64,000 nucleotides of DNA from Williamsia soli (GTDB taxonomy: Bacteria; Actinomycetota; Actinomycetes; Mycobacteriales; Mycobacteriaceae). This document shows positions 1,669-58,895 of the stretch, piece after piece. Each line of letters starts with the position of its first letter. The stretch's first letter is position 1. The stretch is from assembly GCF_017377795.1 (NCBI RefSeq), contig NZ_JAFRDR010000003.1:372001-436000 (forward strand), in the 5' to 3' direction. A program made the translations under genes and the position numbers. The notes beneath the pieces are model-generated. The model worked only from the letters and a program-made list of their open reading frames with translations. It did not search any database and was not told the origin of the DNA.

Positions 1669-3063
1669 ATGAAAATCGGGGCAAAGAAGACCACCGGTTG
1701 GAAGGCGACCATCTCGGTCGCCATGTCCAACTACATCGAGGCCGGCTCGATCATCGCCATCGCCACCAGTCTCGGCTTCTGGCAGGACGAGTTCGGCATC
1801 AGCAACTTCGCCGTCGGGTTGCTCGCCGCGCTCAGCGCCAACGCATTCGGTGCCGCGATCGGTGCCGCCATCGGAGGTCCCCTGTGTGATCGCTACGGCC
1901 GCAAGGCGATCTACACCTACGACCTGATCGTCTACATGGTCGGCGTTTTGCTGGCCGCGTTCGCCATGAACTTCGGAATGCTGATGATCGCGTTCGTGGT
2001 CACCGGTATCGCGGTCGGTGCCGGCGTCCCCGCGTCGTGGACCTACATCGCCGAGCAGGCCCCTTCTGGCGCTCGCGCCAAGCACGTCGGCACCGCCCAG
2101 CTCGCGTGGTCGGTCGGACCGCTGGTCGGCTTCGCGCTGGCCGCCGCACTCGCCCCGCTCGGACTCCTGGGATCGCGCATCATCTTCCTACACCTGTTCG
2201 TCGTCGCCGCAGTGGTCTGGTGGATCCGGCAGGGGCTGGTCGAATCGAAGATCTGGAAGGACGAGGGGCGCGAGAACGTCGATGCGCCGCAGACGTCCGC
2301 CTCGGGCGGAGAAGGCCTGCGTGGCCTGTTCTCGAAGAAGGTCAACATCACCGCCCTTCTCGTGCTCATCGGCATCTATGGCTTCTGGAACACCGTCGCC
2401 GGCCAGGCGGGCATCTTCATGCCCCGGGTGTACGAGACCGCAGGCCTCGAGAGCGAGGTCCAGCAGAACCTGCTGCAGGTGCTGGTCTGGGGCATGACGG
2501 TACTGGCCACCTACTTCGTCTTCATGCGTCTCGCCGACCACATGTCGCAGCGCCTGCTGTTCGCGCTCGGCGCCATCCCAGGCATCTTCGCCTGGGGCGT
2601 GCTGGTCCTGTTCACCGACGGCGGCATGACCACCCTGCTCATCTTCGCGATCTGCTGGGGCATCTCGAGCGGTGTCGGTGCGCAGGCCTTCTACAGCCTC
2701 TGGGCCAGCGAATTGTTCGCGACCCCTTACCGGGCCAGCGCTCAGGGCATCATGTTCTTCGTGGTCCGCACGGCCACCGGCCTGCTGAGCTACTTCTTCC
2801 CCACCCTGCTCGCCGCCACCGGTTTGGCCTGGGTCGGACTCATCCTGATGATCTGCCTGACCGCCTCGCTGATCGTCGGGGTCGTCTGGGCCCCCAACAC
2901 TCGCGGCAAGGAACTCAAGGACATCGAGATCGAACGCTACGGCGAGCCGATCAGTCCCGAACTGACGACCACCACACCTGCAACTCGACATGATCCGGTC
3001 CGACACGAGCCGTCCCCGACGGTGCACGTACCGGCGTCAGCAGGCAACACAGGAGGCAACTGA
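1669..3063 (+). CDS. MFS sugar transporter, probable L-rhamnose uptake
   Basis: A 464-residue major facilitator superfamily protein of the sugar-porter type, with about 12 hydrophobic membrane segments. The loop after TM2 carries the signature DRYGRKAIY, and a longer hydrophilic stretch near residues 185-220 is the central cytoplasmic loop. A good AAGGAG precedes the ATG. It lies between rhaM and rhaI and ends 1 nt before rhaI, so rhamnose import, probably proton-coupled, is the natural inference. Substrate is inferred from context, not from sequence. The last 40 residues are polar and probably disordered. Confidence 0.85.
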   Translation: MKIGAKKTTGWKATISVAMSNYIEAGSIIAIATSLGFWQDEFGISNFAVGLLAALSANAFGAAIGAAIGGPLCDRYGRKAIYTYDLIVYMVGVLLAAFAMNFGMLMIAFVVTGIAVGAGVPASWTYIAEQAPSGARAKHVGTAQLAWSVGPLVGFALAAALAPLGLLGSRIIFLHLFVVAAVVWWIRQGLVESKIWKDEGRENVDAPQTSASGGEGLRGLFSKKVNITALLVLIGIYGFWNTVAGQAGIFMPRVYETAGLESEVQQNLLQVLVWGMTVLATYFVFMRLADHMSQRLLFALGAIPGIFAWGVLVLFTDGGMTTLLIFAICWGISSGVGAQAFYSLWASELFATPYRASAQGIMFFVVRTATGLLSYFFPTLLAATGLAWVGLILMICLTASLIVGVVWAPNTRGKELKDIEIERYGEPISPELTTTTPATRHDPVRHEPSPTVHVPASAGNTGGN

Positions 3064-46100: not shown

Positions 46101-48006
46101 GGTCCGTGGCCTGCGGACGATTGCCGTCGGCGGCGAGAGCTTCGGACGCGACCTGGTCCGTAAGTGGTCGGACGGCCGCACGATGTACAACGTCTACGGG
46201 CCGACCGAGACGACCGTCATCACCACCTGCAGCAATCCGCTGACCCCAGAGGGTCCGATCACGATCGGTTCTCCCAACCGTGGTGTCCGGGCACTGGTGC
46301 TCGACAGTCGCCTGCATCCGACCCCGGTCGGCGTGGCCGGCGAGCTCTACCTCATCGGCGATCAGGTGACCCGCGGATACTTCGGTCGCCCCGATCTGAC
46401 GTCGGCGCGATTCGTCGCCAATCCGACCGGGGTGGGCGGCGAGCGGATGTACCGCACCGGCGACGTCGTACGGTGGACCGCTGCCCGGACGCTGCAGTAC
46501 ATCGGTCGCAGCGACGATCAGGTACAGGTGCGCGGCTTCCGCATCGAACTCGGGGAGATCGATGCGGTCCTCGCCGGCTTCGACGAGGTCCGGCACTCCA
46601 CGACCATCGTGGACGGCGACTCGGACCGGCAGGCACGTCTGCTGAGCTACATCGTCGTCGCAGACGGTGTCGATGTGGACGTTGCGTCGCTGCGAGAGCA
46701 GTTGTCGCACAAACTTCCTCGGCACATGGTGCCGTCGGCGATCACGGTCCTCGACGAGATCCCCATGACCCCGGTCGGCAAACTCGACAAGGCTGCCCTG
46801 CCGAAACCCGAGGTGTCGACGACGACGGGCCGCGCGCCGGCACCCGGCACAGAGACGCTCGTGGCAGCCGCGTTCGCCAAGGCGCTCGACCTCGAGACGG
46901 TGACCGCAAACGATGGCTTCTTCGACCTCGGCGGCAACTCACTCTTGGCCACCAAGGTGATCGCCACGCTGCGGGAGGAAGCCGACATCGCGGTGCCCGT
47001 CGGCTGGATGTTCAGTGACTCGACCACCGAGGAGCTCGCAGCCCGCATCGACAGCGAGCGGCACCGCGCGGCGAACGACCCCGATGCGGCCCCGGCTGTA
47101 CCCGCCGACGATCCGGCGCTGGCACCTCTGCTGTCGCTGCGTGCCACCGGCACCCGGCATCCGGTGTTCGCCGTACATCCCGCGCTGGGCGTCGCCTGGA
47201 GCTACACGTCCCTGCTCACACATCTCGACTCCGACCAACCGCTGTACGGGTTGCAGAACCCCGCACTGTCCGGTGGGCCGAAGTTGCGCTCGGTCCCTGA
47301 TCTGGCGGATTTCTATGTGCAACAGGTCCGTTCGGTACAGCCGCAGGGGCCTTACCATCTGGTCGGCTGGTCGCTGGGTGGTTCGATCGTCCACGAGATG
47401 GCCGTTCAGCTCCGAGAGCAAGGCCAACAGGTGGACCTGCTGATGCTGCTCGACTCCTACGTGATCCCGGGCAGGCCTGAGCTCAACGTCGAACCCTCGG
47501 TCGGAGAGCTACTGGAAGAGTTCGGTTTCTCCGATGTTCGCGAAGCCCTCGGTCACGACGTGGATGCCGACCTGAGCATCGAGCAGGCGACGGAGATCGT
47601 CCACCAAGCCGAAGGGCCACTGGCCCACCTGTCGGTCACCGCTCTCGAATCGCTGTACGAGGCGTACGTGGCAGCGACCGCGGTCGCCCGGGATTGGACA
47701 CCGCGACGCTACGAAGGTGACGTCGTATTCGTCACTGCGGCAGAAGATCCGCCTGCGGGGCAACCCGCGATCGAGGATTGGCGAGAGCATGTCTCGGGCG
47801 AGATCGATCACATCACCGCGCCGTGCCGGCACAGCCAGCTTCTCGATTCCGAGCACGTCGCCCCGGTGGCCGACGCGCTGCGCGATCACCTCGATGCGCT
47901 CGCCGGAGCACACCGGGTCCACGACGCGACCACAGACAAGTTCCACAGTGCCGACAAGTACGAATCAGCCAGGGAGAGGACACATCATGATGAATCCATT
48001 CGATGA
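34153..48006 (+). CDS. Tetramodular non-ribosomal peptide synthetase (C-A-T x4, TE)
   Basis: A 4617-residue NRPS. Each C domain has HHxxxDG (about residues 168, 1246, 2310, 3384); carrier GG(N/T)SL Ser sites lie near 1050, 2120, 3192 and 4260; the thioesterase GWSLGG is near 4405. Specificity-code residues read: A1 DVWHFSLVDK, the serine code; A2 DALFIGAVAK; A3 DALFAGAVVK; A4 DALFAGVVIK. A2-A4 match no code I recall exactly; A3 is 8/10 like a Tyr code (DALVTGAVVK), a weak lead. Module 1 resembles EntF throughout C and A, so a starter C domain may add an acyl or aryl cap. C2-C4 look LCL type and no epimerisation or methylation domain is seen. Predicted product: capped Ser-X-X-X. Confidence 0.95.
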   Translation: MKRALSSTNMDFPYTGDNKIVTTTELTELDSPTEVDQTFAMTEAQRGIWYAHQFDSEVPLSVSAYVEFRGPMDLEALAKAVHYTASETESGLLRVVETDAEPRLYVDRDLDVPLQFVDLRDESDPHERAMEFMTAHRTKPVDLQTDRLLEVFLFELGEDHRIFYCWGHHLAFDGYAAMFMMTAVGQRYGALLDGRDYTAMTSATMAEISELDHAYRASEEFEADREYWRQQLDSIDPEVAETARASLSRTETKRGSDADEDTSASAIARIEYGQLSSELAATLRAVASDNGVRPASVITAAVALYLAGFTGRNQTVISLPVAARTSDLMRTSAGMTSNVLPIGVSATPQMTIAELLTHANFQIKHALKHQRFRHEDILRDLLGDNGSERDFFGPMVNVMLFFSHIDFGPVSGEVHLLSTGPVEDLSVNVYENFGSDEIMFDLEANPNRYTNDEVREHHQRIEALLEALVTNDPQTTIAHLDIVRPEERQRVLSDWNDTAANFAAQTLTELVDRAEAEHVDSPALLDADTAGAALTYGELSFATTALARHLIQRGVGPESVVAVMIPRSIEQVVAIHAVIKAGGAYLPINPDDPADRIEHILTTATPALALVTPDHQDIPVATVTVELGELRATRGDPITDADRPTPLRPEHPAYVIFTSGSTGKPKGVSVSHAAIANRLQWMQAEYGLGRHDRVIQKTPATFDVSVWEFFWPLMSGAALVVPTPDGHRDPWYLREVITAHHITVAHFVPSMLATFVSAFESGDRPDEGTLDSLRLVFTSGEALSTPTAVRFGTISSAPVHNLYGPTEAAVDVTYQNDSAASEGSSVPIGRPVANTAVYVLDQQLRPQPVGAIGELYLAGDQLARGYVRRPDLTADRFVANPHQPGRRMYRSGDLVRWRADGTLDYVGRSDFQVKIRGQRIELGEVQAALDAVTGVREAVVIARTDAATSETMLVGYVTGSALPAAAEVRAALRGTLPEFMIPAAIVELDEIPTTSNGKLDRRALPEPHFEAVELVDQQPADDLELALCQLFSSILGRESTGAGTSFFDLGGNSLLATKVVSRLSAMVGARIGIKALFDAPTPAELAAALREMGIDETQIVPDRRSAIPVAPADIDRIPLSAAQQRVWFINRSDPESGAYNIPFRLKLRGDLNIDALGQALRDVVARQQILRTVFPLDEQGPFQRVLPADEVSEELTVTPIAIEPAQAERVSREIAGEGFDLGEQIPLRVKLLQVSDDEHRLVIVLHHIAADGLSLPPLAHDISVAYAARHAGQAPQWQPLPIQYSDFSVWQQNQLTDDTNADSIAAQLEYWVDTLSDIPAQTELPVDRPRPAAPTMRAGGHSLTLDAGVHRGLLALSGAPGEQTMFTVVHALIATLLRRMAADDDISVGTPVGGRGDDALDQLVGMFVNTVVLRAPVSKSDTFSELLTRLQAVTLDALAHADAPFEQVVQELNPDRSTPAHPLFQVSIAVNENSRVTIELPGVSVDAAPIPTGLIKFDMQFTITEHLDDRGEPAGVEVEIEYASDLFDHSTIRALGKRLQRLARGVLTHPTRPIGDIGILGRGEEASLVPATGPTPRRPRTLPGILAAAVEENPHAIAVRDTRDHLTYAELDARSDWLAHLLIGEGIGPEDFVAVAIPRSIHWIVALWATAKTGAAWVPVDPKYPMERINHIVSDSGARLCLTISEAPVTPDDTPTMAIDHPELLERLRTAVARPVSDSDRIAPLTLDNPAYLIYTSGTTGTPKGVVVSHHGLVDFTTEQVQRFRVEPDSVTLHFASPSFDASVLEVLMAVGGAATMVIAPPHVLGGNELQEVLADASVTHAFVTPSVLATMDPSSLPTLSTVIIGGEHPNPEVVSRWARDRSLFNAYGPTEATVAATISAPITPEGALSIGGPVRGMDLLVLDERLQPVPVGAVGELYLAGGHLARGYHRRTRRTSESFLANPFGRDGDRMYRTGDLVRWTSAAELEFLGRADSQVKVRGFRIELGEIDAALVRDDLVAEAVTIARPGRDGSTELVSYVSPARAQTLQSDSLRDRLTRQLPGHMVPRIIMVIDKLPVTPSGKIDYRALPEPSRGAGDTSTDNGGSPRGRRELEVAAIFAEVVGRDADQIGRAEDFFEMGGNSLMATQVVARLETSMGRRIPVRTLFDNPTISRLARACSSADGEQIAPLPELIARDRPDTGLDSVPALAASRLWFLNRLEPESGAYNIAFAVGLEGDLNVQALEQALSDVTDRHEPLRTIYPEDDGKPQVHVLAAPTFDLTAREIAPTELADHQSSLAAQGFDLRSEHPIRAELAKTGEQHHVLTMVIHHIAADGWSLRPLATDLAQAYQARSGNLAPDFAPLPVRFRDFAEWQRAALGDDRDQDSRVNSLLDWWRGTLAGVRRQSMLPETITGLNGSGTVDFSVDATILQRLNEVARSRDASLFMVMHSALATLLHRLSTDPAVHLEGADSDVVIGSPVAGRDHPQLAELVGMFVNTVVLRTVVPGHTSFADLVDRVRDNDIDAFSHADVPYDQLAAAVAGDRRQQDPLVRVALAFAEDSGPDLALGDLRAEVSEIDTAGTRFDLELRVTGASMRLTYARGKYRRDTVEAMAQRFVRILEAVAADPGISVDDIDILAETEWPTAEVSVDEQGDAWSDNEILLPDLLADASSRNPDAVALEFEPGQWSTPGATSDQRALTYRELDEWSNRWARYLLSLEIGPEDVVPIALSRSAASVAALWAITKTGAAFVPVDPGYPAERIEHMIADCGATVGITDEVTAPDLPTGVRWISLDGQLGAAVETMSGRRLKRQRWATPDNTAYIIYTSGSTGVPKGVAVTHRGLAPLATEQRERYGIGTDSRTLHFASPSFDASILELLLAVSAGATMVIAPRIYGGIDLENFLRDHHITHAFITPAALATVPGTDLPELRALAVGGEACGPELVEKWAPGRTFLNAYGPTETTVVSLMAELHAASEGTGQTVIPIGTPVRGERALLLDARLRPVPAGVPGELYLSGAGVARGYLQRAGLTATRFIASPFGDSGEVLYRTGDVVVSDPDGVITYLGRSDSQVKLRGFRIELGEINAALTARPDIRFAVTVVRGHGEGASLASYVVPEENVDGSLDLEDVRRHLQSRLPRHQVPASITSIDEIPLTPNGKLDNKALPEPAAANRAERRPVTGDTQQSLAELFADVLGVPADQVGADDDFFELGGTSLTATQLISRINRSLGTDLPVKVVFDHPTVSDLAQFAAEGDTSASPERTPLTGAAEHVTSAPLSLAQRRLWFLASTDPESAAYNVPFAVDFHGELSVDALRSALIDLLDRHESLRTLFPEVDGEAVQVPEPDAAKIVGNRLPVEHHDDADRDELVLATAAQGFDLATQAPVRFRLLRTGPLSHTLVVVVHHIAADGWSLPTLLGDLMTAYRARISDAAPEFEPLPVSYIDHTLWQRATVGSPEDPESAAHRQLEYWRGVLQGAPTDSTIPSLTENAMGVAGADTDHSGGNTVLTIDDDLRGAIADLARHEGVSPFMLMHAALAVLMYRMGAGSDVLIGTPVAGRFEPELQRVVGMFVNTLALRSALDPTSSFTTLLSEIRESDLEALAHVDIPFDDVVAAVNPQRVVGRHPLFQIALSVHDWSESSLGGDLDAGPGLSAQVTEVDTPTVKFDLQFTVTGINPGADGQARIKMTYANALYDERTAEAIAGRLVRVLRAVTDTPERPIGDTPVTDFVEEATLAPVRGLPAPRPRALAELFSAAVRDNPDGTALIDAHTSVSYREVDYRSNKLARLLLRRGLGPDSLVAMAIPRSVDSIIATLAITKTGAAFLPVDPSYPSARIEHMLSDSRVRVGITMAEHAQSLPAAVDWFVLDDAAVHGATTALSALPLTRDEIGDGIRHEQLAYIIYTSGSTGRPKGVMVSHRGLAAVHDELKAKMCPESASRVLHFASPSFDASVLEMLMAISGRAALVISPVDIYGGEQLADFLELSAVTHAFITPAALASLDHRRVRGLRTIAVGGESFGRDLVRKWSDGRTMYNVYGPTETTVITTCSNPLTPEGPITIGSPNRGVRALVLDSRLHPTPVGVAGELYLIGDQVTRGYFGRPDLTSARFVANPTGVGGERMYRTGDVVRWTAARTLQYIGRSDDQVQVRGFRIELGEIDAVLAGFDEVRHSTTIVDGDSDRQARLLSYIVVADGVDVDVASLREQLSHKLPRHMVPSAITVLDEIPMTPVGKLDKAALPKPEVSTTTGRAPAPGTETLVAAAFAKALDLETVTANDGFFDLGGNSLLATKVIATLREEADIAVPVGWMFSDSTTEELAARIDSERHRAANDPDAAPAVPADDPALAPLLSLRATGTRHPVFAVHPALGVAWSYTSLLTHLDSDQPLYGLQNPALSGGPKLRSVPDLADFYVQQVRSVQPQGPYHLVGWSLGGSIVHEMAVQLREQGQQVDLLMLLDSYVIPGRPELNVEPSVGELLEEFGFSDVREALGHDVDADLSIEQATEIVHQAEGPLAHLSVTALESLYEAYVAATAVARDWTPRRYEGDVVFVTAAEDPPAGQPAIEDWREHVSGEIDHITAPCRHSQLLDSEHVAPVADALRDHLDALAGAHRVHDATTDKFHSADKYESARERTHHDESIR

Positions 48007-48247
48007 CGAGCGGGGTACGTTCCGCGTTCTGGTCAACCACGAGGGCCAGCATTCCCTGTGGCCGGATTTCGCGCCCGTGCCCGGTGGCTGGACATCCCAG
48101 CACGGACCGTCCGGCCGCGAGGATTGCCTGCAGTACGTCGAGCAGAACTGGCGCGATATCGCTCCGATGAGCCTCAAGCAGTCGATGTCAGAACGTAAGC
48201 ACGAGATCCGAGCAGTCCGCGACGACAAGTGGTGGATCAATGGATGA
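47987..48247 (+). CDS. MbtH-like NRPS accessory protein
   Basis: An 86-residue MbtH-family protein that binds and activates adenylation domains. The signature NHEGQHSLWPDFAPVPGGW and REDCLQYVEQNWRDIAP are intact, including the conserved Trp residues. A C-terminal extension (ERKHEIRAVRDDKWWING) is longer than the minimal family. Two consecutive ATGs (47987, 47990) are usable, with AGGGAGAGGA upstream. It overlaps the NRPS 3' end by 20 nt and the exporter ATPase by 8 nt. Confidence 0.95.
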   Translation: MMNPFDDERGTFRVLVNHEGQHSLWPDFAPVPGGWTSQHGPSGREDCLQYVEQNWRDIAPMSLKQSMSERKHEIRAVRDDKWWING

Positions 48248-49226
48248 GTATGCGATCGAGGTCTCCGGTCTGACGAAGACCTTCGGTGGCAAGTTCGGGC
48301 GCGGTGAACCTCATCGCGCACTCGGGGGTGTCGACCTGCAGGTCAAGCGGGGTACCGTTCATGCTCTCCTCGGACCCAACGGGGCCGGCAAGACCACGAC
48401 CGTGCGGGTGATATCCACTCTGCTCAAACCCGATGAGGGCACGGTCACCGTACTGGGCACCGACGCCCTGGCCGATCCCGCCAAGGTTCGTCGCAGCATC
48501 GGGGTCTCCGGACAGTACGCCGCGGTGGACGGCAACCTGACCGGTTGGGAGAACCTCCGCATGGTCGCGCGCCTGTACGGCCTCAAACGGAAGGCCGCCG
48601 GCGCTCGCGCCGACGAACTGATCAATGACTTCCGGCTCACCGACGCACGAGATCGTCCCTCGCGCACCTACTCCGGCGGCATGCGCCGCCGACTCGATCT
48701 CGCCGGCTCGCTGATCGCGAGGCCCGGCGTCGTCATCCTCGACGAACCCACCACCGGCCTCGACCCACGAGGTCGACGCGAGATGTGGGCACTGATCGAG
48801 AATCTCGTCAGCACGGGCACCAGCGTGCTCCTGACCACGCAGTACCTCGAGGAGGCCGACGCCCTCGCCGACATCATCACGGTGATCGACAAGGGCGTGG
48901 TGGTCGCGAAGGGCACCGCCGCCGAACTGAAGGCCGCGTCCCAGTCCACCCTGCTGACAGTGGAAGTGGCTCAGGGCTATGACCGGGACCGGCTCATCGC
49001 CGTGCTGACCGAATACGGATCGGGCGAACCGTACAGTCACGCGCACTCGATGGCTTGGCATGTTCCAGTCGCGCACGGCAACGCCAGTGCGGCAGCGATC
49101 ATCCAGGCTCTGTCCGAGACGGGCGTGATGGTGTCGGACTTCACCGTCGACGCCCCCACGCTCGACGACGTCTTCCTGAACCTGACGTCGACCACCCCCG
49201 ACAAAGACGAGGAGCGTGCTGCGTGA
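48240..49226 (+). CDS. ABC exporter ATPase, DrrA type
   Basis: A 328-residue daunorubicin-resistance-type ATPase: Walker A GPNGAGKTTT, signature YSGGMRRRL, Walker B VVILDEPTTGLD, H-loop replaced by Gln in LLTTQYLEE as usual for DrrA, and the C-terminal extension seen in the DrrA group. Pairs with the following permease to export the NRPS product and perhaps give self-resistance. Its ATG lies inside the mbtH coding end. Confidence 0.93.
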   Translation: MDEYAIEVSGLTKTFGGKFGRGEPHRALGGVDLQVKRGTVHALLGPNGAGKTTTVRVISTLLKPDEGTVTVLGTDALADPAKVRRSIGVSGQYAAVDGNLTGWENLRMVARLYGLKRKAAGARADELINDFRLTDARDRPSRTYSGGMRRRLDLAGSLIARPGVVILDEPTTGLDPRGRREMWALIENLVSTGTSVLLTTQYLEEADALADIITVIDKGVVVAKGTAAELKAASQSTLLTVEVAQGYDRDRLIAVLTEYGSGEPYSHAHSMAWHVPVAHGNASAAAIIQALSETGVMVSDFTVDAPTLDDVFLNLTSTTPDKDEERAA

Positions 49227-50134
49227 CGACAACATCGGCACAGCCGACTCCCGACGACACGAAGCGTGCGAACGAGAAGCAGGAGAAACCGAACAAGGTG
49301 ACCGCGACGTCGATGGGTTCTGAGGACTTCCTTCCCGCGAAAGGTGGCGGACTGTTCTCCGACAGCTCGGTGATGGCGGGGCGAAATCTGCTGACCATCC
49401 GCCGGGTACCGACGCTGCTCGTGAGCGCCACCGTGCAGCCCTTCATGTTCGTCTTCCTCTTCGCGTACGTGTTCGGTGCGACCCTCGGCGGCGCGTCCTA
49501 CCGCGAGTTCCTGATGGCAGGAATCTTCACGCAGACAGTTGTTTTCAACTCGGCCTTCACCACTGTCGGACTCGCCCAGGACTTACAGTCCGGCATTGTC
49601 GATCGCCTGCGGACGCTGCCCATGTGGTCGCTGGCGGTAGTGCTCGGACGGACACTGTCCGATCTCTTGGTCAGCATCGTCAGCGTCGCCGTCATGGCGC
49701 TGTGTGGCCTGGTCATCGGCTGGCGCATCCGCGGCAGCGCACTCGATGCGTTGATCGCCCTCGGCCTGATCCTGTTGCTCGCGTTCGCGATGTCGTGGGT
49801 CGGTGCGTTCTCCGGCCTCATGGCGCCCAATGTCGAGGTGGCGCAGAGCGTCGGTTTCGTGTGGATGTTCCCGATGACGTTCCTCTCGAGCGCGTTCATC
49901 TCGGCGCAGAGTCTGCCCGGGCCGCTCAAGACAATCGCAGAGTGGAATCCGATCACCGCCGTGGCCACTGCATCTCGGCAGTTGCTCGGTAACGCGGCGC
50001 CTGCCGACTTCCCGCAAGCGACGGGCTGGGTGGCAGACAACGCAGTGCTCTATTCAGTCCTCACGTGCGCTGCGATCCTCGTCGTGTTCGTGCCGTTGTC
50101 GCTGTGGCGTTACCGCTCAGTCGCCAGCCATTAG
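49223..50134 (+). CDS. ABC-2 exporter permease, DrrB type
   Basis: A 303-residue ABC-2 permease with a ~70-residue charged cytoplasmic N-terminus and six membrane segments (PFMFVFLFAYVFGATLGG onward, last segment AAILVVFVPLSLWRYRS). The family stretch QDLQSGIVDRLRTLPM is present. GTG start within the ATPase stop (GTGA, 49223-49226). Last gene of the NRPS operon; the second palindromic element begins at the base after its stop. Confidence 0.92.
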   Translation: MTTTSAQPTPDDTKRANEKQEKPNKVTATSMGSEDFLPAKGGGLFSDSSVMAGRNLLTIRRVPTLLVSATVQPFMFVFLFAYVFGATLGGASYREFLMAGIFTQTVVFNSAFTTVGLAQDLQSGIVDRLRTLPMWSLAVVLGRTLSDLLVSIVSVAVMALCGLVIGWRIRGSALDALIALGLILLLAFAMSWVGAFSGLMAPNVEVAQSVGFVWMFPMTFLSSAFISAQSLPGPLKTIAEWNPITAVATASRQLLGNAAPADFPQATGWVADNAVLYSVLTCAAILVVFVPLSLWRYRSVASH

Positions 50135-50212: not shown

Positions 50213-51346
50213 TCAGTAGTCGGATTCGGCCGCCAAGATCTCGGCAAGGAACGCGTCGGCGGGCGGCGCGGCGAGGCGCGCACGCACGAAGGCCCGCACC
50301 CGTTCACGGGCTTGTACCGGCTCTGATACCGCCGCCCCCACAGTCAAGGCTGTCGACGACCAATCATGGCCCCACAGCTCTGACTCCGTTGCAGCGTCAT
50401 CGCCGGCGCTGAGCTCGATCCTCGCGGCACCATTGCCGTCCAGTACGGCCGCTCCGGCGATCGCACCCGAGCGCAAGGTGACGGCGATACCCGCCGGGTC
50501 GCCCCCGATCAACATTGTCCGGACGACCGCTGTTGCGGCGTCGCCAGAACCGGCTGGTATCAGCCATTCCGCTGTGTTCTCGGCAGCATCGAAGGTGTGC
50601 GGCGGGACAGCGCCCCACTTGATCGACGCCGTACCCCGTGCGATCGCGCCCGAATTGGTGCCGGCTGTTGCGCCCGCCGCGAGGGCGTAGTCGTCCTGCC
50701 TGCCGGCTTCGGCCGTCGCGCGTGGATCCGAGTTGTCCAGCGTGTCGGCGAGATCGAGCCACAGTGCCGAGTCAGGGCCGGCGCCGGCGCCGGTTTCCTC
50801 CACCAGTTCGACTGCGCGAGATACCAGTTCCACGATCCGATGATCGCCACCACGTGCGTGCCTGGTCAGAGCAACCGCATGCGGCGCGAGCAACGCGGCC
50901 ACGTCGGAGTCGAAGGTGTCGGCGGGGAAAAAGTGTTGGGCATCTGCCGTCAGTACTGCGACCTCGGCGTCGAGGAGGGCGGCGTCCAGCGGTCCGATCG
51001 CGTCGCGAACACTGGTCGGCCACCAGCGACGCAGCCAGTGTCCGAGCGCGAGCCGCCGTGGCACCTCGAGCGCCCCTGCGACGATCTCGACGTCGTCGAT
51101 CTCGAGAGAGTCTGGCCCGACAGCCGGATCCGCCATACCGGCGGCAAGTGCGATGTGACCGTCTTCCCCGACCACATGCCACAGCCAGTCGGCCTGATCG
51201 TGGTCGAGAAAGGTGATCTGAGGCGGGTCCGTCGCATCAACAGTCCACGACATCACCGCGCCACCGACCTCGAGTACGGCGACCAGTGGCGGACCTTCTA
51301 CCTCTGGGCCGATGGTCCACAGCCTCGATTGCGGGTGCAGCCTCAT
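50213..51346 (-). CDS. Protein of unknown function, paired with next gene
   Basis: A 377-residue soluble protein I do not recognise. No signal peptide or membrane helix is visible. It is acidic and Ala-rich, with a Trp-rich N-terminal half (QADWLWHVV, LGHWLRRWWPTSV) and a beta-rich C-terminal half. The ATG at 51346 overlaps the stop of the 446-residue gene (ATGA), so the two are made together. Same strand as the CHAT and TPR genes 4 kb away. The frame extends upstream, but that part lies over the neighbour. Confidence 0.75.
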   Translation of the reverse strand: MRLHPQSRLWTIGPEVEGPPLVAVLEVGGAVMSWTVDATDPPQITFLDHDQADWLWHVVGEDGHIALAAGMADPAVGPDSLEIDDVEIVAGALEVPRRLALGHWLRRWWPTSVRDAIGPLDAALLDAEVAVLTADAQHFFPADTFDSDVAALLAPHAVALTRHARGGDHRIVELVSRAVELVEETGAGAGPDSALWLDLADTLDNSDPRATAEAGRQDDYALAAGATAGTNSGAIARGTASIKWGAVPPHTFDAAENTAEWLIPAGSGDAATAVVRTMLIGGDPAGIAVTLRSGAIAGAAVLDGNGAARIELSAGDDAATESELWGHDWSSTALTVGAAVSEPVQARERVRAFVRARLAAPPADAFLAEILAAESDY

Positions 51347-52683
51347 ATCGCCGCCACACCCGATGCCGGGTTCAGTTGATTCTCCAACATTGCCTTGATG
51401 CGCTGGCGCTGGTCCAGGCTCGTCGACCGCGCCACCCCATCCAGCAGCGCGCGAACATCGTCGACGTCGGCGCATGTTTCCTGCCACACGTCGCGACCGT
51501 GCAATCTGGCCCACAGCCGGCTCAGGTATGGCCGGGCGAACGCCCGGAGATCATCGACCACCCGCTGCTGGCGCGGATGCAATGCGGTGTCTCCGGCAAG
51601 GCAGCGTCGCGCGTGCAGCACATACGCCTCCTTGCGCAGTCGCGCTTGGATCTGCATCGCCAAAGCGGTCTGGGGAGTGTGCTTCTCGTCGAGAGGCACG
51701 AGGTCGACGGCGACCTCGATGCCGGCGATCAATGTGGCCTGGCGATCTTCGCCGAGTAGGCCCCATGGCGCACACGCGCGGTCCACCTCCTCGTCGCACA
51801 GCAGGGGGACGTCAGGGAGCTCGGTCTGGTCGAGGCCGCGGCGCAGGGTGGCCCGGACCCGCTCGGCAACCGTCCGGTCGAGCGGCCGATCGCCACGCGG
51901 TTCGCCGAGTACGGTCGGACGTTGTTGTGGAGCAACAGAACTCAGCCCGACGTCGACGATTGACCACGGGAGTACCGATACTTCGTCCCGAGCGAGCGCC
52001 CCGAGGTTGAACGGTGTCTCATCGGCGATGAGCGCCGACCACACCCGCTGCCGGGCGCCGCGGGAGCTGTGATCGTCGGCCGGCCCCAACACTGCGGGCA
52101 GGCCTGAAAGAAACGGCCCGGTGATTGACCCGCCGGGTGCCACATCACCCCAACTGGCTGCCAGTTGCCGCGTGAGTTTGTCCACCACGGCAGGATCGGA
52201 CAGATGGTCGGTGAGAACCGCACCCGCAGTTCGGTCCCGGTCCCCATGTAGTTCGAGCAGCGTCGCCTCTGCGACATCGTCTGCGTCAGCCTGCGGCACC
52301 CCTACGGTGACGGCAAGCTCGAAACAGATCGGAAAGTACATCTCCTGGGCATTCCCGGTGGTGATCCGGAGCCGCTTGCGAGCCTTCTTCAGGAAGGTGA
52401 ACCACGTGGCGGTCAACACCAGTTCGCGGCCATGGGCTGTGATCAAGGCATCGACGGCGGCGGCGGCCTCGCCCGCGAGGATCGGTGTGGAGAACTGCGG
52501 ATTCACGCGCAGCCGCAACACCAGCGGATCGAGGATGCGTTTGACAGTGCGCCGCAGCGGTCCCCCGTCCGTGCTGCTGAGCACCTCGAGTCCCGGACCG
52601 ATACGTCGCCACGCCTCGTCGATCACCGCCCGTCGTGGACGGGCCACCGACACGTCGGTCGTCACCTGCAGCCCCGTACTCAT
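51343..52683 (-). CDS. Protein of unknown function, first of a coupled pair
   Basis: A 446-residue soluble, mostly helical protein with no recognised domain. It starts MSTGLQVTTDVSVARPRRAV and contains a basic patch, WFTFLKKARKRLRITTGN (about 120-137), and a C-terminal region with Arg/His clusters (LHARRCLAGDT, LWARLHGRDVW). No export signal. Coupled to the 377-residue gene by ATGA. Upstream of ATG 52683 the frame stays open for 35 codons without support. A role with the CHAT/TPR genes is inference from proximity and strand. Confidence 0.75.
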   Translation of the reverse strand: MSTGLQVTTDVSVARPRRAVIDEAWRRIGPGLEVLSSTDGGPLRRTVKRILDPLVLRLRVNPQFSTPILAGEAAAAVDALITAHGRELVLTATWFTFLKKARKRLRITTGNAQEMYFPICFELAVTVGVPQADADDVAEATLLELHGDRDRTAGAVLTDHLSDPAVVDKLTRQLAASWGDVAPGGSITGPFLSGLPAVLGPADDHSSRGARQRVWSALIADETPFNLGALARDEVSVLPWSIVDVGLSSVAPQQRPTVLGEPRGDRPLDRTVAERVRATLRRGLDQTELPDVPLLCDEEVDRACAPWGLLGEDRQATLIAGIEVAVDLVPLDEKHTPQTALAMQIQARLRKEAYVLHARRCLAGDTALHPRQQRVVDDLRAFARPYLSRLWARLHGRDVWQETCADVDDVRALLDGVARSTSLDQRQRIKAMLENQLNPASGVAAI

Positions 52684-52803
52684 CAGGCGATCGTAGACCG
52701 AGGCGGCCGAGTCGAACCAGTGCCGAAGTTGGGATCGGTAGCCGCTCGCGGACGAGATCGTTGACGCATGCGAACACGACTTTCCCACCTGAAGACCACC
52801 TCG

Positions 52804-53385
52804 ATGACGTCCATCCGACCACGACGAGGCCCGGCGAGACCCCCAGCATCGGCCATCGGCCTCGGGACAGTGTCGGGCGCCGCCGAAGGCTGTCAGGGCT
52901 CCGCGGTGGCCGTCGACGTCGAAACCGTCTCAGGCGAACGCTTTCGCGGGGCGCTCACCACCTCCACCTGTCACGGCGCGGCCCTCGACCTGAGGCCCGG
53001 AGTGGTCATCGCGGTCAGATTCGATCCGGACAGGCCGGCCGTTCTCACCCTTGCCGACGACATGATCGCTGCGCGTGCAGCGTTCGACCACATGCTGATC
53101 CGTAAAGGACTCACGACCACCGAGAAGATCGATCTCGTGCGGCGGGGAAACCGGTCTCAGGGTGTGGTGACCGCGGTGCGCGTCACCGGCGATGTGATCG
53201 AGGACCATCAAGAGGTCACGGTCGACCTGATGGTCAGCAAGACCGACGGTGGACAATTCGCCGCCCGTGAAACCGCCTACATTCCAGCCACATCCGTGGC
53301 CTCGGTGGCGCCGGGGAGCGTGATCGCCGTCTACTATCGGCCTGCAGACGAATCGACGATCTCGATCACGGTTCCCAGGGCCTGA
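52804..53385 (+). CDS. Small hypothetical protein with two similar beta-rich halves
   Basis: A 193-residue protein with no recognised family. Two segments share a pattern ending in a Pro-Gly turn: DLRPGVVIAVRFDPDRP (about 75-91) and VAPGSVIAVYYRPADE (about 172-187). They suggest a duplicated beta-barrel-like unit with a helical linker (MLIRKGLTTTEKIDLVRRGN). No signal peptide or membrane helix. Start uncertain: 52768 is also in frame and neither has a good ribosome-binding site. Divergent from the 446-residue gene; the only plus-strand gene between 50.2 and 58.1 kb. Confidence 0.65.
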   Translation: MTSIRPRRGPARPPASAIGLGTVSGAAEGCQGSAVAVDVETVSGERFRGALTTSTCHGAALDLRPGVVIAVRFDPDRPAVLTLADDMIAARAAFDHMLIRKGLTTTEKIDLVRRGNRSQGVVTAVRVTGDVIEDHQEVTVDLMVSKTDGGQFAARETAYIPATSVASVAPGSVIAVYYRPADESTISITVPRA

Positions 53386-53492
53386 CACACTGTGGAGTTG
53401 TCAATGTTCCAGCTGCGCCGGTGTCATCCGGTGCTGCGGTAGTAACTTCGGGCTACGTCGTCGAAGTAGTTTCTCGTGAACTTGTGGGCCGT

Positions 53493-54803
53493 TTATGCGG
53501 CGAGTGGTTCGTTGGTCAGGGTTCGCCGGGCGTGCGACCGCATGGGCGTGGTGGTGCCGGGTTTGACGAAGCAGGGGTGTCCGTCTGCCACATGGGTCGA
53601 GCTCCGCTCCGCTTCGTCTCCGCCAATGAACACGGTCCAGCCTTTGTGGTGGATGTAGTTGTGGTGCCGACGGCACAGCAGGACAGTGTTCGCGAGGCTG
53701 GTCTCGCCGCCATGACTCCAGAACTTGATGTGGTGGGCCTCTGTCCAGCCGGCGGGGCAGCCGCAGCCGGGGAACGCACAGCCTTTGTCGCGCGCGATGA
53801 GTGCTTTACGGATGGCGGGTGTGACCGTGCGGAACTCGCGTCCGACATCGAGGGGTACGGCGTTGTTGTCGAGCAGGATCTTGGTGATCACCGAATCGCA
53901 CACCGTCATCTGTGCGGTGGGCAAAGACACCGGTCCGGTCCACTCGAACGTCGCGGTCGGTACCTTCGCGCCGGAGATGCCGTTCATCTGAAAGGCCAGG
54001 AGCTGCTCAGCCGACACTGTCATCGTCACCCGCGGTTTCACGCCACCTTCGGTGGGCCGGTCCTGGTGAGCGAAGAACACATCCAGGATCTTGCCGAGGG
54101 CTTCGGACAGACGTTGCGGCGTGCTGCGAGGATCAGGTGACCCGTCGGGTTCTGGGACCGGCTTGGCCACCGGACGCAACGCAGCAGAGAGCTTCTCGCC
54201 GAGCGTTTTGTCGAGGTCAAGAGTGCCGTGGGTACGGCCGTCGTCACCGGTCCCGAACGACACCTCATTGAGGTCATCGTTTTCCGCGTCCGGTACTTCC
54301 TTGTCCGGTGGGGACAGGGCGATAGCCATCTCGTGGGCTCGCCGGCTCACTGCCGCCGGCGTCGACACACGAGCTTCGGTCAACAACCCACGCACGCAGT
54401 CGTTGCGGTCAGACTCCGACAGATCCGGATCACGTCGATCGATGTGATTGAGACCTTTCACTATCGCGTCCATGTGTTCCCCCGATAGTGTCCCGTCGAC
54501 GGCGTAGCCAGCGACCGAAGGAACAGAGCTGAGCGCGCGACCGACCCGCACGTAGCGTTGCGCGGCAGCCGGCGGCGTCTGCACCGACTGCAGAAGCTCT
54601 ACAGTCGAGTCCGCACCGAGTGTTTTCGCGACACCACGCTTGTCGAGGTCGGCAGTGCACCGAAAGAGCAGCACATCCAACACGTTCTTGGCCCGCAGCG
54701 CGTAGACAGTCTCCTCGGACAACGCCAGATCGTCCAGCGGTGCGAGCAGCAATGGATCCGCCGCCATCGTTGATAAGTGTTCGAACAGCCCCCGCAAGTT
54801 CAT
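53493..54803 (-). CDS. DUF222 / HNH endonuclease, 13E12 family
   Basis: A 436-residue member of the 13E12 repeat family. The N-terminal ~300 residues are the DUF222 region (GLNHIDRRDPDLSESDRN and RVTMTVSAEQLLAFQ). The C-terminus is an HNH nuclease: CAFPGCGCPAGWTEAHHIKFW, then LCRRHHNYIHHKGW, with all metal and catalytic His/Asn positions present. These genes are multicopy in Mycobacteriales and are treated as mobile or recombination-prone elements. It separates the CHAT/TPR pair from the 446/377 pair. An alternative start is 54767. Confidence 0.9.
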   Translation of the reverse strand: MNLRGLFEHLSTMAADPLLLAPLDDLALSEETVYALRAKNVLDVLLFRCTADLDKRGVAKTLGADSTVELLQSVQTPPAAAQRYVRVGRALSSVPSVAGYAVDGTLSGEHMDAIVKGLNHIDRRDPDLSESDRNDCVRGLLTEARVSTPAAVSRRAHEMAIALSPPDKEVPDAENDDLNEVSFGTGDDGRTHGTLDLDKTLGEKLSAALRPVAKPVPEPDGSPDPRSTPQRLSEALGKILDVFFAHQDRPTEGGVKPRVTMTVSAEQLLAFQMNGISGAKVPTATFEWTGPVSLPTAQMTVCDSVITKILLDNNAVPLDVGREFRTVTPAIRKALIARDKGCAFPGCGCPAGWTEAHHIKFWSHGGETSLANTVLLCRRHHNYIHHKGWTVFIGGDEAERSSTHVADGHPCFVKPGTTTPMRSHARRTLTNEPLAA

Positions 54804-54943
54804 AACTCGAAACTACCTCAAGACCTGGATTAGTACAAGTGTTCGAAAGTTACTTATTTCATTGTCCAGCAACATGTTTCAACGAACCGCAGGCTGACCG
54901 CACCCAGAATATCAGCGAGGTCTGACATCGCCGAAAACACACG

Positions 54944-55048
54944 AGAAGGGCACAGTCGACGGTCAGAAGGGCACGGTCGGTGGGTGTTTCGGCCCGGTCG
55001 ACAGTCAGAAGGGCACGGTTGGCGCGAGTTTGGGCACGATCGACGGTG
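54944..55048. repeat. Five imperfect 21-nt tandem repeats
   Basis: Five consecutive 21-nt units (e.g. AGAAGGGCACAGTCGACGGT plus C) lie between the HNH and CHAT genes. Units 1, 2 and 4 begin AGAAGGGCAC, units 3 and 5 begin GTTTcGGCcC or similar, giving a 42-nt higher-order period. A short minus-strand frame across them reads as heptads (TVDRAET, PTDRALL), but no gene is called. Confidence 0.7.
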
Positions 55049-55063
55049 GTCACCACAGCTCGC

Positions 55064-56413
55064 TCAATCAGCGCCTACGACGAATGTGACCAGCGCACCC
55101 CAGTAGATCGGATGAGCGCCAACGTCCCCATCTCGCCAGCGTCGCATCTGAGCCCGCTGCCACCGACCGACGGACCGTGCCGCGTCGTCGGCCCGATGTG
55201 CACTGTCGACCGCGACGATCAGCTCCGCCATCGGATCCCTGCCGCCGGCCGCCGCCTCCCCCTGAAATCGGAGGTAGCCGGCCGTTGTGGGCAGTGACCA
55301 CAGAGTCGCCGTGACGACCTCCGCACCCGCCAGGATCAGCGCAGCAACCATGCCCGTCGCTTCGTCGAACCGGTAGTCGCTGCCAGATGCGCACGCCACC
55401 AACGCCACCCGCGGCGGCATCGGCCACCGCGACGTATCCACCAAGAGATCAGCCGCGGTGAACGGGCGGTGCGTTCCCACCACATCCGCGTATCCCGGGA
55501 TGCTCTCCTTGCACGCCAGGTGGATCGCGGCGCGTTCGGCGTATCCGGCGTCGCCCGGCGCCGCACTCGCATGACCCACGAACAGCAGCCGGCTCGGTTC
55601 GTCCTGCAACGTTCTCGACATCCAGATCCGGTCGATGTCGCTTCGCCGGAACAACTCCACCGCAGTCCCGACATCAGGAATGACGGTCTCGGCCGCGAGG
55701 ATCTCCGCGAAGTGTTGCGCGACGACACTTGTCGGCGAGGGTCGTCCCAACACCGACCCGAGCGGAGAATCCGGGCGCTGACCCGGTACGCGCGGATCGA
55801 GGAGCAGCACCGGAGGGTTGTGACGCCGGTCTTCCCAACTCACCACGCGCCGCGGCGCCCGCACGATGTTGGCGGGTGGTGCCATCACCACATCGGCGAT
55901 CTCCATCAGTCGATACCCGTCGGTCAGCTCGGGCAAGTCCGGAAGTTCTTGGCCACCAGAGAATTCTGCTGGTGTGGTGTCCACCAACCCGTTCGCCAAC
56001 GACAACGCGGTGGGCACCGCGAGCATCGCAAAGGGTGTCTGCGCGAGACGCGCAGTGGGAGTGACGAACAGCATCGGCCGCGGATCGGCGACACATTCCG
56101 ACAGCAGTGTCCATGCCTGCACTGAGAGCAGGAGCGATCCCAACTGGTACGACCACCGCAACTCTGAGTCGGGGGACGCCAACGGACCGGCCGTCAGAGC
56201 CCTGTCGATCGCGTCCCCGGCCGATTCCTCCCCGTACGGCACCGGTAACGCCGCGTCGAGTAGCGCCGTCGCCGCGTTCAGGTGCGAATCCGCGACCACC
56301 CAGGTCACCGTTCGCGCAGGATCGCCGACGACCCGCAGACTCCCGTAGGTCGCGACCCCCACATCAGCGAACCTCAGCACCAGCGTCATACCACCGGTGC
56401 CGTTCACGGCCAT
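55064..56413 (-). CDS. CHAT-domain (caspase-like) protease
   Basis: A 449-residue protein whose C-terminal ~330 residues form a CHAT domain, the caspase/separase-related cysteine protease fold. Catalytic His281 lies in LLFVGHAS and Cys341 in VALVACASGSDYRFDEATGM. Upstream ARLAQTPFAMLAVP and the terminal HPIYWGALVTFVV also match the family pattern. No membrane helix or signal peptide. Its ATG overlaps the TPR gene's stop by 10 nt. CHAT proteases coupled to TPR proteins occur in signalling and defence systems; the target here is unknown. Confidence 0.88.
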   Translation of the reverse strand: MAVNGTGGMTLVLRFADVGVATYGSLRVVGDPARTVTWVVADSHLNAATALLDAALPVPYGEESAGDAIDRALTAGPLASPDSELRWSYQLGSLLLSVQAWTLLSECVADPRPMLFVTPTARLAQTPFAMLAVPTALSLANGLVDTTPAEFSGGQELPDLPELTDGYRLMEIADVVMAPPANIVRAPRRVVSWEDRRHNPPVLLLDPRVPGQRPDSPLGSVLGRPSPTSVVAQHFAEILAAETVIPDVGTAVELFRRSDIDRIWMSRTLQDEPSRLLFVGHASAAPGDAGYAERAAIHLACKESIPGYADVVGTHRPFTAADLLVDTSRWPMPPRVALVACASGSDYRFDEATGMVAALILAGAEVVTATLWSLPTTAGYLRFQGEAAAGGRDPMAELIVAVDSAHRADDAARSVGRWQRAQMRRWRDGDVGAHPIYWGALVTFVVGAD

Positions 56414-58134
56414 GTCGCCCAGACCGGCTCGGCGCTGGTGACCACGCGACCATAACGCTCCTGCGCCAACTCGCGATACCGCGCCAGCACGGGCGGGCCC
56501 GCGGGATCCATCCGCAATGGCGGCAACGGACCGAGCCTGGTCAACGCTGACGTGGCGGCGACGGCAGCACCCGCTGCGAACGCCACTTCGGCGATGTCAG
56601 CCGTTACGGGAGTCGCGGCCGTCGCTGTCACCTCCCAGTCGACGACCGTCGAGGGATCAGGCTGAGTGGTGAAAGTACCCCGTGCACACTGATATTCGAT
56701 GAGCTCTGCCACCAGCTCCACATTCTCCCACTCCCACGCCACGGCAAACGCCCCGGCGAGGATCGGTGCCGAGACCGAGGCAGTCCACCGCAGACGCGCG
56801 GTCGCGTCGGCGAGGGTGTACCGCACACTGTCAACCGCAAGTGCCGCCGGAATCTTCAGGTCCGCGGCACGTTCGAACTTCGTCATCGCCCTCTCGTAGC
56901 CGTCGGTGCCGAGAGCCGCGTCCACGACCCCACGCGATCCGGCCAGTCTCGCCTCCAGCTCACGCCACCCCTCATCGGGGTTTCCAGCCCCATCGAATCC
57001 CATGTCCGCCAGCGCTTCCGCACGCCAGGCAGAACCGAGCAGATCGTCGAGCCGGGCGTACTGGAGCCACGTCGATCGCGGACTCGAATCGAGCACACCG
57101 CGGGCCTGCTCGATGGCGTCGCGGGCCTGCGCATAGCGGCCTCGGAAAATTTCTGTCCAGCTGCGCTGCAACAATATTCGATGCACATGTAGCGGCCTGC
57201 CGAGTTCTTCCCAGTGCCGCTGGGCGTGCTGCCAGCACTCGTCGGCTGCTTCCAATGCGCCCGCAGCCATCCGGGTGAGCCCGAAGTACAGCCAGCATCG
57301 CGAGACATCGTGGGCGATCGCATGCTGGGCGATGACCGGATAAGCAAGCGTGGCCAGACGTTCGGTGTCCACGACGTCAGATCGCGACCACGCGGCAGCG
57401 GACCGCTCCAACAGCACTCTCGCCGAGGCCAACTCCCACCCCCGACGTTCTGCACGCGCACCTGCGCGACGGAGGTGGGGCTCCGCCTCGGCCAGGCGCC
57501 CCGTCTCAACGCAGAACCGTCCATATCCGATTCCGACGAGGACCCACAGGTGATCGGACCGGGCATCCTGCTCGCGCTCATCGAGGACCGCCAGCACCGC
57601 ATCCCACAGTGGCTCCGCCCGGACGTGATCGTCGTCGTCAGCGAGGGCGAGGGCGCAACTGATACGGGCCCGCATGACGAGTTCACGAGCTTCGTCGGCG
57701 AGGTTCGGCGCGGCGCCCGTATCACTCTCGCCGATCAGATCTGCCAGACCCGCAGCCGCCGCTTCGTGGTCACCGGCAGCGGCGGCGAGCCCGATTTCGA
57801 GGTGATCAGCCCGCCGGGTGTACCGGACAACCATCTCGTCGACGATGTCAGGAGGCAGTGTCACCTGTGCGGCGTCCTTCGAGAACGGATCCGCGGCGAT
57901 CTGGACATAAGCCGACACACAGTCGCGGATTCGTCGAACACATTCGGCCACACCGTCGTAGGCGCTGCGGACCAGGTACACCTCGCCCAGTTGCGCGAAC
58001 ACCTCGAGCGCGAGGTCGTCGCGGTCCAGGGCCACGATCTGTGGCATCAGAGAGAGCAGCAGGGCTTGCGCGCCGGCGTGATCATCGGCGAACGCCAACT
58101 GGCGGGCACGTTCGAGCTCACCGGGAACCGACAT
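56404..58134 (-). CDS. TPR-like helical repeat protein partnered with CHAT protease
   Basis: A 576-residue, almost wholly helical protein. Repeated pairs of helices with small-residue patterns (LAEAEPHLRRAGARAERRG, YARLDDLLGSAWRAEALADM, GRYAQARDAIEQARGVLDSS) indicate tetratricopeptide-type repeats. No export signal. It is the first gene of the TPR-CHAT pair and overlaps the protease by 10 nt. TPR scaffolds typically sense a partner and hold the CHAT protease inactive until triggered; that role is inferred. Confidence 0.82.
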   Translation of the reverse strand: MSVPGELERARQLAFADDHAGAQALLLSLMPQIVALDRDDLALEVFAQLGEVYLVRSAYDGVAECVRRIRDCVSAYVQIAADPFSKDAAQVTLPPDIVDEMVVRYTRRADHLEIGLAAAAGDHEAAAAGLADLIGESDTGAAPNLADEARELVMRARISCALALADDDDHVRAEPLWDAVLAVLDEREQDARSDHLWVLVGIGYGRFCVETGRLAEAEPHLRRAGARAERRGWELASARVLLERSAAAWSRSDVVDTERLATLAYPVIAQHAIAHDVSRCWLYFGLTRMAAGALEAADECWQHAQRHWEELGRPLHVHRILLQRSWTEIFRGRYAQARDAIEQARGVLDSSPRSTWLQYARLDDLLGSAWRAEALADMGFDGAGNPDEGWRELEARLAGSRGVVDAALGTDGYERAMTKFERAADLKIPAALAVDSVRYTLADATARLRWTASVSAPILAGAFAVAWEWENVELVAELIEYQCARGTFTTQPDPSTVVDWEVTATAATPVTADIAEVAFAAGAAVAATSALTRLGPLPPLRMDPAGPPVLARYRELAQERYGRVVTSAEPVWATWP

Positions 58135-58237: not shown

Positions 58238-58747
58238 TCAGTTGCAGGTGACCGTGACGGTGAACTCTTTCTTGATCATTCCCGCGGTCGGGTTCTTCAT
58301 GTCCGCCCCCTCGGCCTCACCGGTGATCGTGTAGGTGTCGCCATCGACCGACACCTCGGCCGATCCGACCGACATGCCCATGCTGTTCGTGACCGCCAGG
58401 GCACTTCCGTCGACCACGATTCCCAGCGACTCCACCTTGGGGGTGGCCTCGTCGGTCATCACGATGCCGAGGCCCTGCTGACCACCCGTCGACCCGCTGC
58501 CCACATTGATCTTTCCTCCCTGCTTGACGCAGCTGACCGAGTCGAGATCCACGCCGGCGAGATCCTTGCCTTCGACCTTGACCTCGGTGTCACCACCCGT
58601 GGAGACCTCGGTGCCGCCCGTCTGCACGGTGCTCGCCGCCGGGGTGGCGGCAGGGCTGCTGTTGCTGCTGCTGCTGTCATCGGAACAGGCGGAGAGTATT
58701 CCGACTGCGGCGATCAGTCCGATGGTGGCTGCGAGGACTCGTTTCAT
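58238..58747 (-). CDS. LpqH-type (19-kDa antigen family) lipoprotein
   Basis: A 169-residue lipoprotein: signal MKRVLAATIGLIAAVGIL and lipobox SAC with Cys21, then a Ser/Thr/Ala-rich spacer and a compact beta domain with one disulfide candidate pair (VSCVKQGG and the C-terminal VTVTCN), as in mycobacterial LpqH. Family members are abundant cell-wall lipoproteins. GGGAAGA precedes the ATG at 58747. Expressed alone; a strong hairpin follows. Confidence 0.83.
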   Translation of the reverse strand: MKRVLAATIGLIAAVGILSACSDDSSSSNSSPAATPAASTVQTGGTEVSTGGDTEVKVEGKDLAGVDLDSVSCVKQGGKINVGSGSTGGQQGLGIVMTDEATPKVESLGIVVDGSALAVTNSMGMSVGSAEVSVDGDTYTITGEAEGADMKNPTAGMIKKEFTVTVTCN

Positions 58748-58895
58748 TGGTCTTCCCTTCGTTGATGCGTCGCCTGGAGTGGCGCCGTCATGAGAGAAGT
58801 ACAAGCCACGCCCTCGGCTACCGATCCCAATTTTCCTCCCACCGGTGGCGGCAGAGACCTGGTCAGTCGGGACTCAGCGTCGTTGACCCGCCAGT

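Follow-up and report, generated by a model that had tools for sequence, protein, structure and literature searches.

We investigated a 64,000-nucleotide (nt) stretch of the Williamsia soli genome (assembly GCF_017377795.1, contig NZ_JAFRDR010000003.1, positions 372,001 to 436,000 of the forward strand; hereafter the window), in which a preliminary description had joined a tetratricopeptide repeat (TPR) protein, a CHAT protease and two coupled proteins of 446 and 377 amino acids (aa; hereafter 446 and 377) into one locus split by a DUF222/HNH gene. We found that these four core genes, together with an LpqH-type lipoprotein gene and a small opposite-strand gene (P3), almost certainly form one functional unit, as judged from their distribution and arrangement across genomes, and that a 13-bp element, TTGGGWTCGGTAG, is present in both intergenic regions of this module in the window. 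Relative to the preliminary description, the module now includes two further members and a cis element but no longer the HNH gene; the conservation of the element in the intergenic regions is a new observation, absent from that description. In the following, G000 denotes the window genome (6.07 Mb; genus g1, Williamsia), and G001 and the like denote other sampled genomes. The features of the locus are as follows.

50213..51346, minus strand: 377-aa protein (377), no family assigned over the cut-off
51343..52683, minus strand: 446-aa protein (446), no family assigned, ATGA-coupled to the 377 gene
52729..52741, plus strand: element TTGGGATCGGTAG, between 446 and P3, oriented towards P3
52768..53385, plus strand: P3, small opposite-strand gene, weak DUF3592 match
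53493..54803, minus strand: DUF222/HNH (13E12-type) gene, 436 aa, passenger
55064..56413, minus strand: CHAT caspase-like protease, 449 aa, with the codons of His281 at 55571-55573 and Cys341 at 55391-55393 (computed from the gene start)
56404..58134, minus strand: TPR-type protein, 576 aa, with a conserved C-terminal region (IPAALAVDSVR), named from weak Pfam TPR hits and from its relatives
58238..58747, minus strand: LpqH-type lipoprotein (PF05481, Myco_19_kDa)
58818..58830, minus strand: second element copy, oriented towards the lipoprotein, whose start lies about 70 nt downstream

All of the genes described earlier were confirmed at their positions and strands, including the overlap of TPR and CHAT, which measures 10 bp; 446 and 377 overlap by 4 bp (ATGA).

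Co-occurrence and gene order

In the window genome and 60 relatives, 446, 377 and TPR were each found in the same 11 of 61 genomes, and CHAT in those 11 and two more. In the family sample, 446 and 377 were each present in 108 of 401 genomes, and these two sets were identical; CHAT was present in 121 of 401, matching in all 108 genomes that carry 446, on the same contig in 107 and within 10 kb in 106. One of the two exceptions to the 10-kb spacing is G007, where a contig break intervenes; the other, G243, is considered below. The proposal that TPR-CHAT and 446/377 belong to one module is thus borne out by the identical sets, the presence of CHAT in all of them and the close spacing. Beyond the family, the 446 profile matched 7 of 246 genomes of the phylum sample, six within the family and one outside it, weakly (2.2e-4, 55 residues). 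Five Streptomyces megaplasmids and a replicon of Nocardia farcinica also carry 446, in each case about 4 kb from CHAT.

Module profiles were run over 138 loci (2.18 Mb), in which G006 and G008 are each included twice (L055/L065 and L056/L066), and three gene orders emerged. The first, in 80 named loci (the best 80 of 301, mostly Mycobacterium and Mycolicibacterium), reads lipoprotein > TPR > CHAT > P3 < 446 > 377 > and is complete in 73; six of the seven incomplete loci are cut by contig ends, and the seventh (L112) has no detectable P3. The second, P3 < lipoprotein < 446 > 377 > TPR > CHAT >, was found in genera g15, g22 and g23, where 34 of the 44 loci are complete, the others being without P3 (6), the lipoprotein (1) or both (3), with some of these stretches cut; the N. 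farcinica module follows order 2 as well. The third, CHAT > lipoprotein > TPR < 446 > 377 >, was seen in four of five g9 loci, where no P3 was found; the fifth is G243. The Streptomyces loci L225, L269 and L270 read 446 > 377 > TPR > CHAT; an LpqH-type lipoprotein was not found in L225, and L269 has a different lipoprotein-like gene, as read by eye. In other genera the four core genes are contiguous (446>377>TPR>CHAT), and in G022 they lie in a contiguous, operon-like run with overlapping genes. These rearrangements leave the lipoprotein and, in most loci, P3 associated with the four core genes; the module is larger than described, and both genes are conserved members of it.

The HNH gene is, on comparison of gene orders, a passenger of one Williamsia clade and would play no part in the module. 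It matched DUF222 (84.8 bits) and HNH (25.5 bits), both over the Pfam cut-off, and its position between CHAT and P3 is confined to four Williamsia genomes (G000, G001, G002 and G007, in the last across the contig break). The relatives G004, G005, G006, G008 and G036 run TPR-CHAT-P3-446-377 without it, which confirms that it interrupts the module. The proteins of G001, G002 and G007 are the closest to those of the window, so that one insertion would be enough. The rest of the window's contig carries one further DUF222/HNH-like open reading frame (ORF).

When the flanks of loci outside the window were clustered into families, the outer neighbours proved to vary: the two edges of the 80 named loci gave 16 and 15 families (75 and 78 loci with a gene there), and those of 50 loci of the remaining groups 30 and 32; the upstream neighbour is the same in 7 of 7 Williamsia loci. 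Identity to G004 was 50% for 377, 57% for P3, 59% for TPR, 64% for CHAT, 68% for 446 and 83% for the lipoprotein, compared with 73% for the flanking FMN (flavin mononucleotide) reductase, 79% for the ATPase and 91% for the permease of an ATP-binding cassette (ABC) pair, and 90% for a luciferase-like protein. All members but the lipoprotein have thus diverged more rapidly than the flanking genes, which fits an accessory or conflict role and proves neither.

The shared 13-bp element

Comparison of the upstream regions placed TTGGGATCGGTAG at both window sites, 52729-52741 and 58818-58830. When no pattern was set in advance, 124 of 126 loci were found to carry CTACCGATC, part of the element's complement, upstream of the lipoprotein gene, and 81 of 138 to carry TTGGGTTCG upstream of 446. 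With one mismatch allowed, the window contained exactly these two sites against 0.07 expected, and the 138 loci contained 214 against about 2 expected under a first-order model; all 214 lie inside the module or at most 400 bp from it, and all but one are upstream of a gene. They comprise 154 sites in the 80 named loci, 14 in seven Williamsia/G036 loci, 44 in 45 order-2 loci, one in the five g9 loci and one in L225; two of the 45 order-2 loci and four of the five g9 loci have none. The bases around the element vary, the element itself having been picked with at most one mismatch in that comparison. On the window's own contig (770 kb), the exact 13-mer occurs at the module only.

In order 2, including L225, a TANNNT box follows the element by 13-18 nt in 44 of 45 sites, compared with 0 of 45 at a control place, and this spacing places the element like a −35 region or an activator site reading towards the lipoprotein. 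A promoter role is therefore likely in order 2, to judge from box and spacing, and we infer that the element may act similarly in the window. In the Mycobacterium/Williamsia order, another conserved block follows the element at the lipoprotein sites.

A 139-aa gene accompanies the module on all five module-bearing Streptomyces plasmids. Beside it, downstream of CHAT, lie extra exact 11-base cores of the element (L269, 15770 and 16096; L270, 15772 and 16098), one of which precedes the gene, and L270 has one further exact core at 3010, outside the module. In Streptomyces sp. NBC_01237, the 139-aa gene lies beside 446, in the place of P3.

The module proteins

The CHAT protein matched Pfam PF12770 at 33.5 bits, above the curated cut-off of 24, and all 11 aligned relatives also matched the family (E up to 1, best value 9.2e-11). 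His281 and Cys341, reported intact in the preliminary description, were invariant in these 11 relatives and in 136 of 136 retained sequences of a deeper set, from which pieces shorter than 300 aa or containing a stop had been removed beforehand. The protein is very probably an active cysteine protease. The TPR protein reached only 19.7 bits with TPR_12, below the cut-off, and takes its label from weak hits and from relatives having clear TPRs, to which it is homologous (hhalign, 99.5-99.9%). That TPR would gate CHAT follows from family knowledge; both this gating and cutting by CHAT are suggested by such knowledge together with a natural fusion on the Streptomyces sp. NBC_01237 megaplasmid (L225, 12646-15582), where a single 978-aa ORF carries TPR at 26-545 and CHAT at 554-977. 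The CHAT frame looks broken in G002 (L058) and G005 (L054), and that of 446 in G002 as well, by assembly error or decay; in G002, the alignments of five flanking genes are unbroken.

The lipoprotein matched PF05481 at 102.6 bits (cut-off 23) and, by sequence, is assigned to an exported family, that of the Mycobacterium 19-kDa antigen LpqH; a lipobox-like pattern was found in 113 of 126 relatives, and the window protein has LSAC, read by eye. P3 had two Pfam matches, DUF3592 and TOBE_2, both weak: DUF3592 scored 22.6 bits, under its cut-off of 25.3, and 17.9 bits in L220. A strongly hydrophobic stretch of 19 residues was present in 96 of 123 P3 hits when each was translated from the farthest upstream start within 100 codons, although some of these starts may be too early; it lay in the first part of the protein in the rows inspected. 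By eye, the window P3 as annotated has no strongly hydrophobic stretch near its start.

Neither 446 nor 377 had been given a recognised domain. This held for 446, which has no Pfam match; 377 matched MalQ_N alone and weakly (15.5 bits, cut-off 24.1), as did 3 of 10 of its relatives, and nothing over the cut-off. NCBIfam, PADLOC and PHROGs searches returned no match for either, and a PDB sequence search nothing below E 0.5. Both proteins have a variable stretch between two conserved halves, at about residues 200-262 in 446 and 180-215 in 377.

Relation to known systems

Csx29 of the type III-E CRISPR system Craspase is a TPR-CHAT protease in which CHAT works with TPRs. The module resembles it in combining a CHAT cysteine protease with TPRs, which are fused in one Streptomyces plasmid locus, but TPR and CHAT are separate genes in the window. 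No Cas family scored over the cut-off in the module proteins or six window neighbours, no search for CRISPR arrays having been made, and a Cmr2_N match at E 0.22, seen in a single one of the 11 CHAT relatives, is a chance hit.

Burroughs and Aravind reportedly described the CATRA caspase/TPR conflict systems in 2020. CATRA-C bears the Pfam name "CASPASE and TPR Repeat-Associated C-terminal domain", and CATRA has been presented as a caspase-dependent ternary conflict system (PMC8195603). The same broad make-up, with a caspase-type protease, a TPR protein and an extra protein of unassigned kind in one locus, raises the possibility that the module belongs to CATRA and that 446 or 377 is a diverged CATRA protein. 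However, the lipoprotein, P3 and the element are additional in the window module, a scan at E up to 1 of 446 and 377, with 10 members of each, found neither CATRA-N nor CATRA-C, and hhalign against one CATRA-C protein, itself borderline (33.1 and 21 bits, cut-off 24.6), gave no signal; a remote kinship would be compatible with these results. CATRA-C was present in 1 of 246 phylum genomes (G638:C73, 6138-6479) and not in the window genome; CATASP was not found in the window genome in a search that gave no match in any control either. Membership in CATRA is thus improbable. EACC1-caspase is a membrane-associated two-gene system (PMC7159879); it also links a caspase-type protease to a membrane protein, but the module has six genes instead of two, and P3 matches nothing beyond its two weak families. 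With no CATRA domain in 446/377 and no Cas family in the module, we file it neither as CATRA nor as Craspase, both of which it resembles in outline.

A second CHAT architecture (X-Y-CHAT with TPR) was seen in L205-L214, L227 and L062, and on the Rhodococcus plasmid pNSL1. Among 13 loci with CHAT only or a second copy, 11 have one and eight have both of two other proteins of unassigned kind (X and Y, about 500 aa) adjoining CHAT, and most have a nearby TPR gene. Its CHAT is homologous to that of the window (L062, 35% identical; L063, 33%), as is its TPR to that of the module (hhalign, 99.5-99.9%); profile comparison gave no significant link of X with 446 or of Y with 377, and the element was absent from the 11 such loci scanned. 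In G243 (L214, genus g9), a diverged 446/377 pair lies 13 kb from a second-architecture CHAT cluster, within the same 20 kb.

PADLOC returned nothing below E 0.07 for TPR, CHAT, HNH, P3, 446 or 377, and the lipoprotein had no match there at E up to 0.01. Phage records gave no match for CHAT, PHROG none for five of the proteins of the locus, and our literature search no paper describing the module.

Proposed function and alternatives

The best reading of these results is regulated TPR-CHAT proteolysis linked to the envelope, which we consider as likely to be right as wrong. Through the element, the module would come under joint regulation. A signal from the envelope or of an invasion may be reported or carried by the lipoprotein on the outside and by P3 at the membrane, and TPR would pass it to CHAT. 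The cut that CHAT then makes would fall in the obligate 446-377 pair, with the variable stretch of either protein as the likeliest site, and would free an effector. The constant pairing, the translational coupling and the variable stretches between conserved parts point to the pair as target or executioner, and 446/377 may be a substrate or regulated partner of CHAT, although we put this somewhat short of an even chance. A conflict or antiphage purpose is possible but doubtful on these comparisons, the candidate functions being defence and envelope signalling. In its fullest form, the proposal is a novel envelope-to-cytosol caspase-like relay of mycolate-type actinobacteria, with a surface lipoprotein and a membrane protein behind a dedicated upstream element and a TPR-gated CHAT that would process 446 and 377, two families lacking known relatives, which would serve as paired executioner; that every part of it is right is unlikely.

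Several observations weigh against this reading. The functions of the module proteins are read from sequence, and a CHAT profile run against PDB chains, including Csx29, matched none at E up to 1. The structure predictions called for in the preliminary description did yield models of 446 and 377, but these are poor (mean pLDDT, the predicted local distance difference test, 54.7 and 62.2) and too weak to use; the low-confidence model of 446 is mostly helical, fold searches with both gave nothing significant, and a conserved cleavage site was not identified. At the element, the TANNNT box follows 0 of 170 sites in the Mycobacterium/Williamsia order. The own-genome scan covers the one 770-kb contig, which elsewhere holds two 13-mers with one mismatch and two more exact 11-base cores, one site being both. 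As for co-occurrence, the nearest CHAT in G243 lies 13.4 kb away and belongs to the other architecture, in G230 CHAT is matched by a fragment of 46 positions where a contig ends, and the Fisher p of 7.6e-84 treats related genomes as independent and is therefore no probability. The two pairs proved not to be widespread apart as far as 446/377 is concerned, but CHAT occurs without 446/377 in 13 of 121 CHAT genomes; nine of these were examined, and six of the nine have parts of the second architecture.

In a different arrangement of the same parts, 446/377 would be a sensor complex that switches TPR-CHAT on. The protease would then act as a switch for suicide or growth arrest by cutting another target, which might be P3, the lipoprotein or some general protein of the host. 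The separation of 446/377 from TPR/CHAT in the Mycobacterium/Williamsia order is consistent with this, and 377 is the least conserved module protein relative to G004 and G008 (50-51% identity); sensors facing variable triggers are often poorly conserved. Relative to G001, however, P3 and CHAT are less conserved than 377, no result favours sensor over substrate, and the two proteins of unassigned kind kept beside CHAT in the second architecture are compatible with either role, so we regard a sensor role as rather unlikely. The module could also serve envelope homeostasis or stress instead of defence, the lipoprotein reporting the envelope state and proteolysis adjusting lipoprotein or lipid handling. 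The LpqH-type lipoprotein and P3, usual members in the two main gene orders, are in keeping with such a pathway, as are the shared upstream neighbour of the Williamsia loci, the ordinary neighbours in the window, and the missing phage-record match for CHAT and PHROG matches. Against it stand the patchy presence in the sampled family genomes, the occurrence on megaplasmids and the accessory-like divergence of all members except the lipoprotein; we hold it to be conceivable, not probable. Chance neighbourhood of two unrelated gene pairs with a mobile HNH gene between them might be read from the window, where the pairs are 2.4 kb apart with two other genes between, but co-occurrence, adjacency, three gene orders and the overlapping run in G022 refute it and leave it virtually no chance.

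Compared with these alternatives, envelope-linked TPR-CHAT proteolysis remains our preferred reading. A caspase-like protease with constant partners is rarely delimited so cleanly by comparison, and about a quarter of the genomes sampled carry the module, in a family with many mycobacteria among its members. The fixed partners of the protease narrow the search for substrates to a few candidates, and the conserved element offers a handle on the inducer, through which the question of protease signalling becomes directly testable in harmless laboratory strains of actinobacteria.

Neighbouring genes

The six window neighbours scanned encode an MbtH-like protein, an ABC exporter pair, an FMN reductase, a luciferase-like monooxygenase and an M24 peptidase. 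PADLOC matched only the ABC ATPase and the luciferase-like oxidoreductase among them, which we read as generic-domain matches. An ORF of 4617 aa at 34153-50134, which looks like a nonribosomal peptide synthetase by eye, adjoins the module together with the MbtH-like protein and the ABC exporter pair, and the ABC genes also adjoin the module in G001, G002, G004 and G008.

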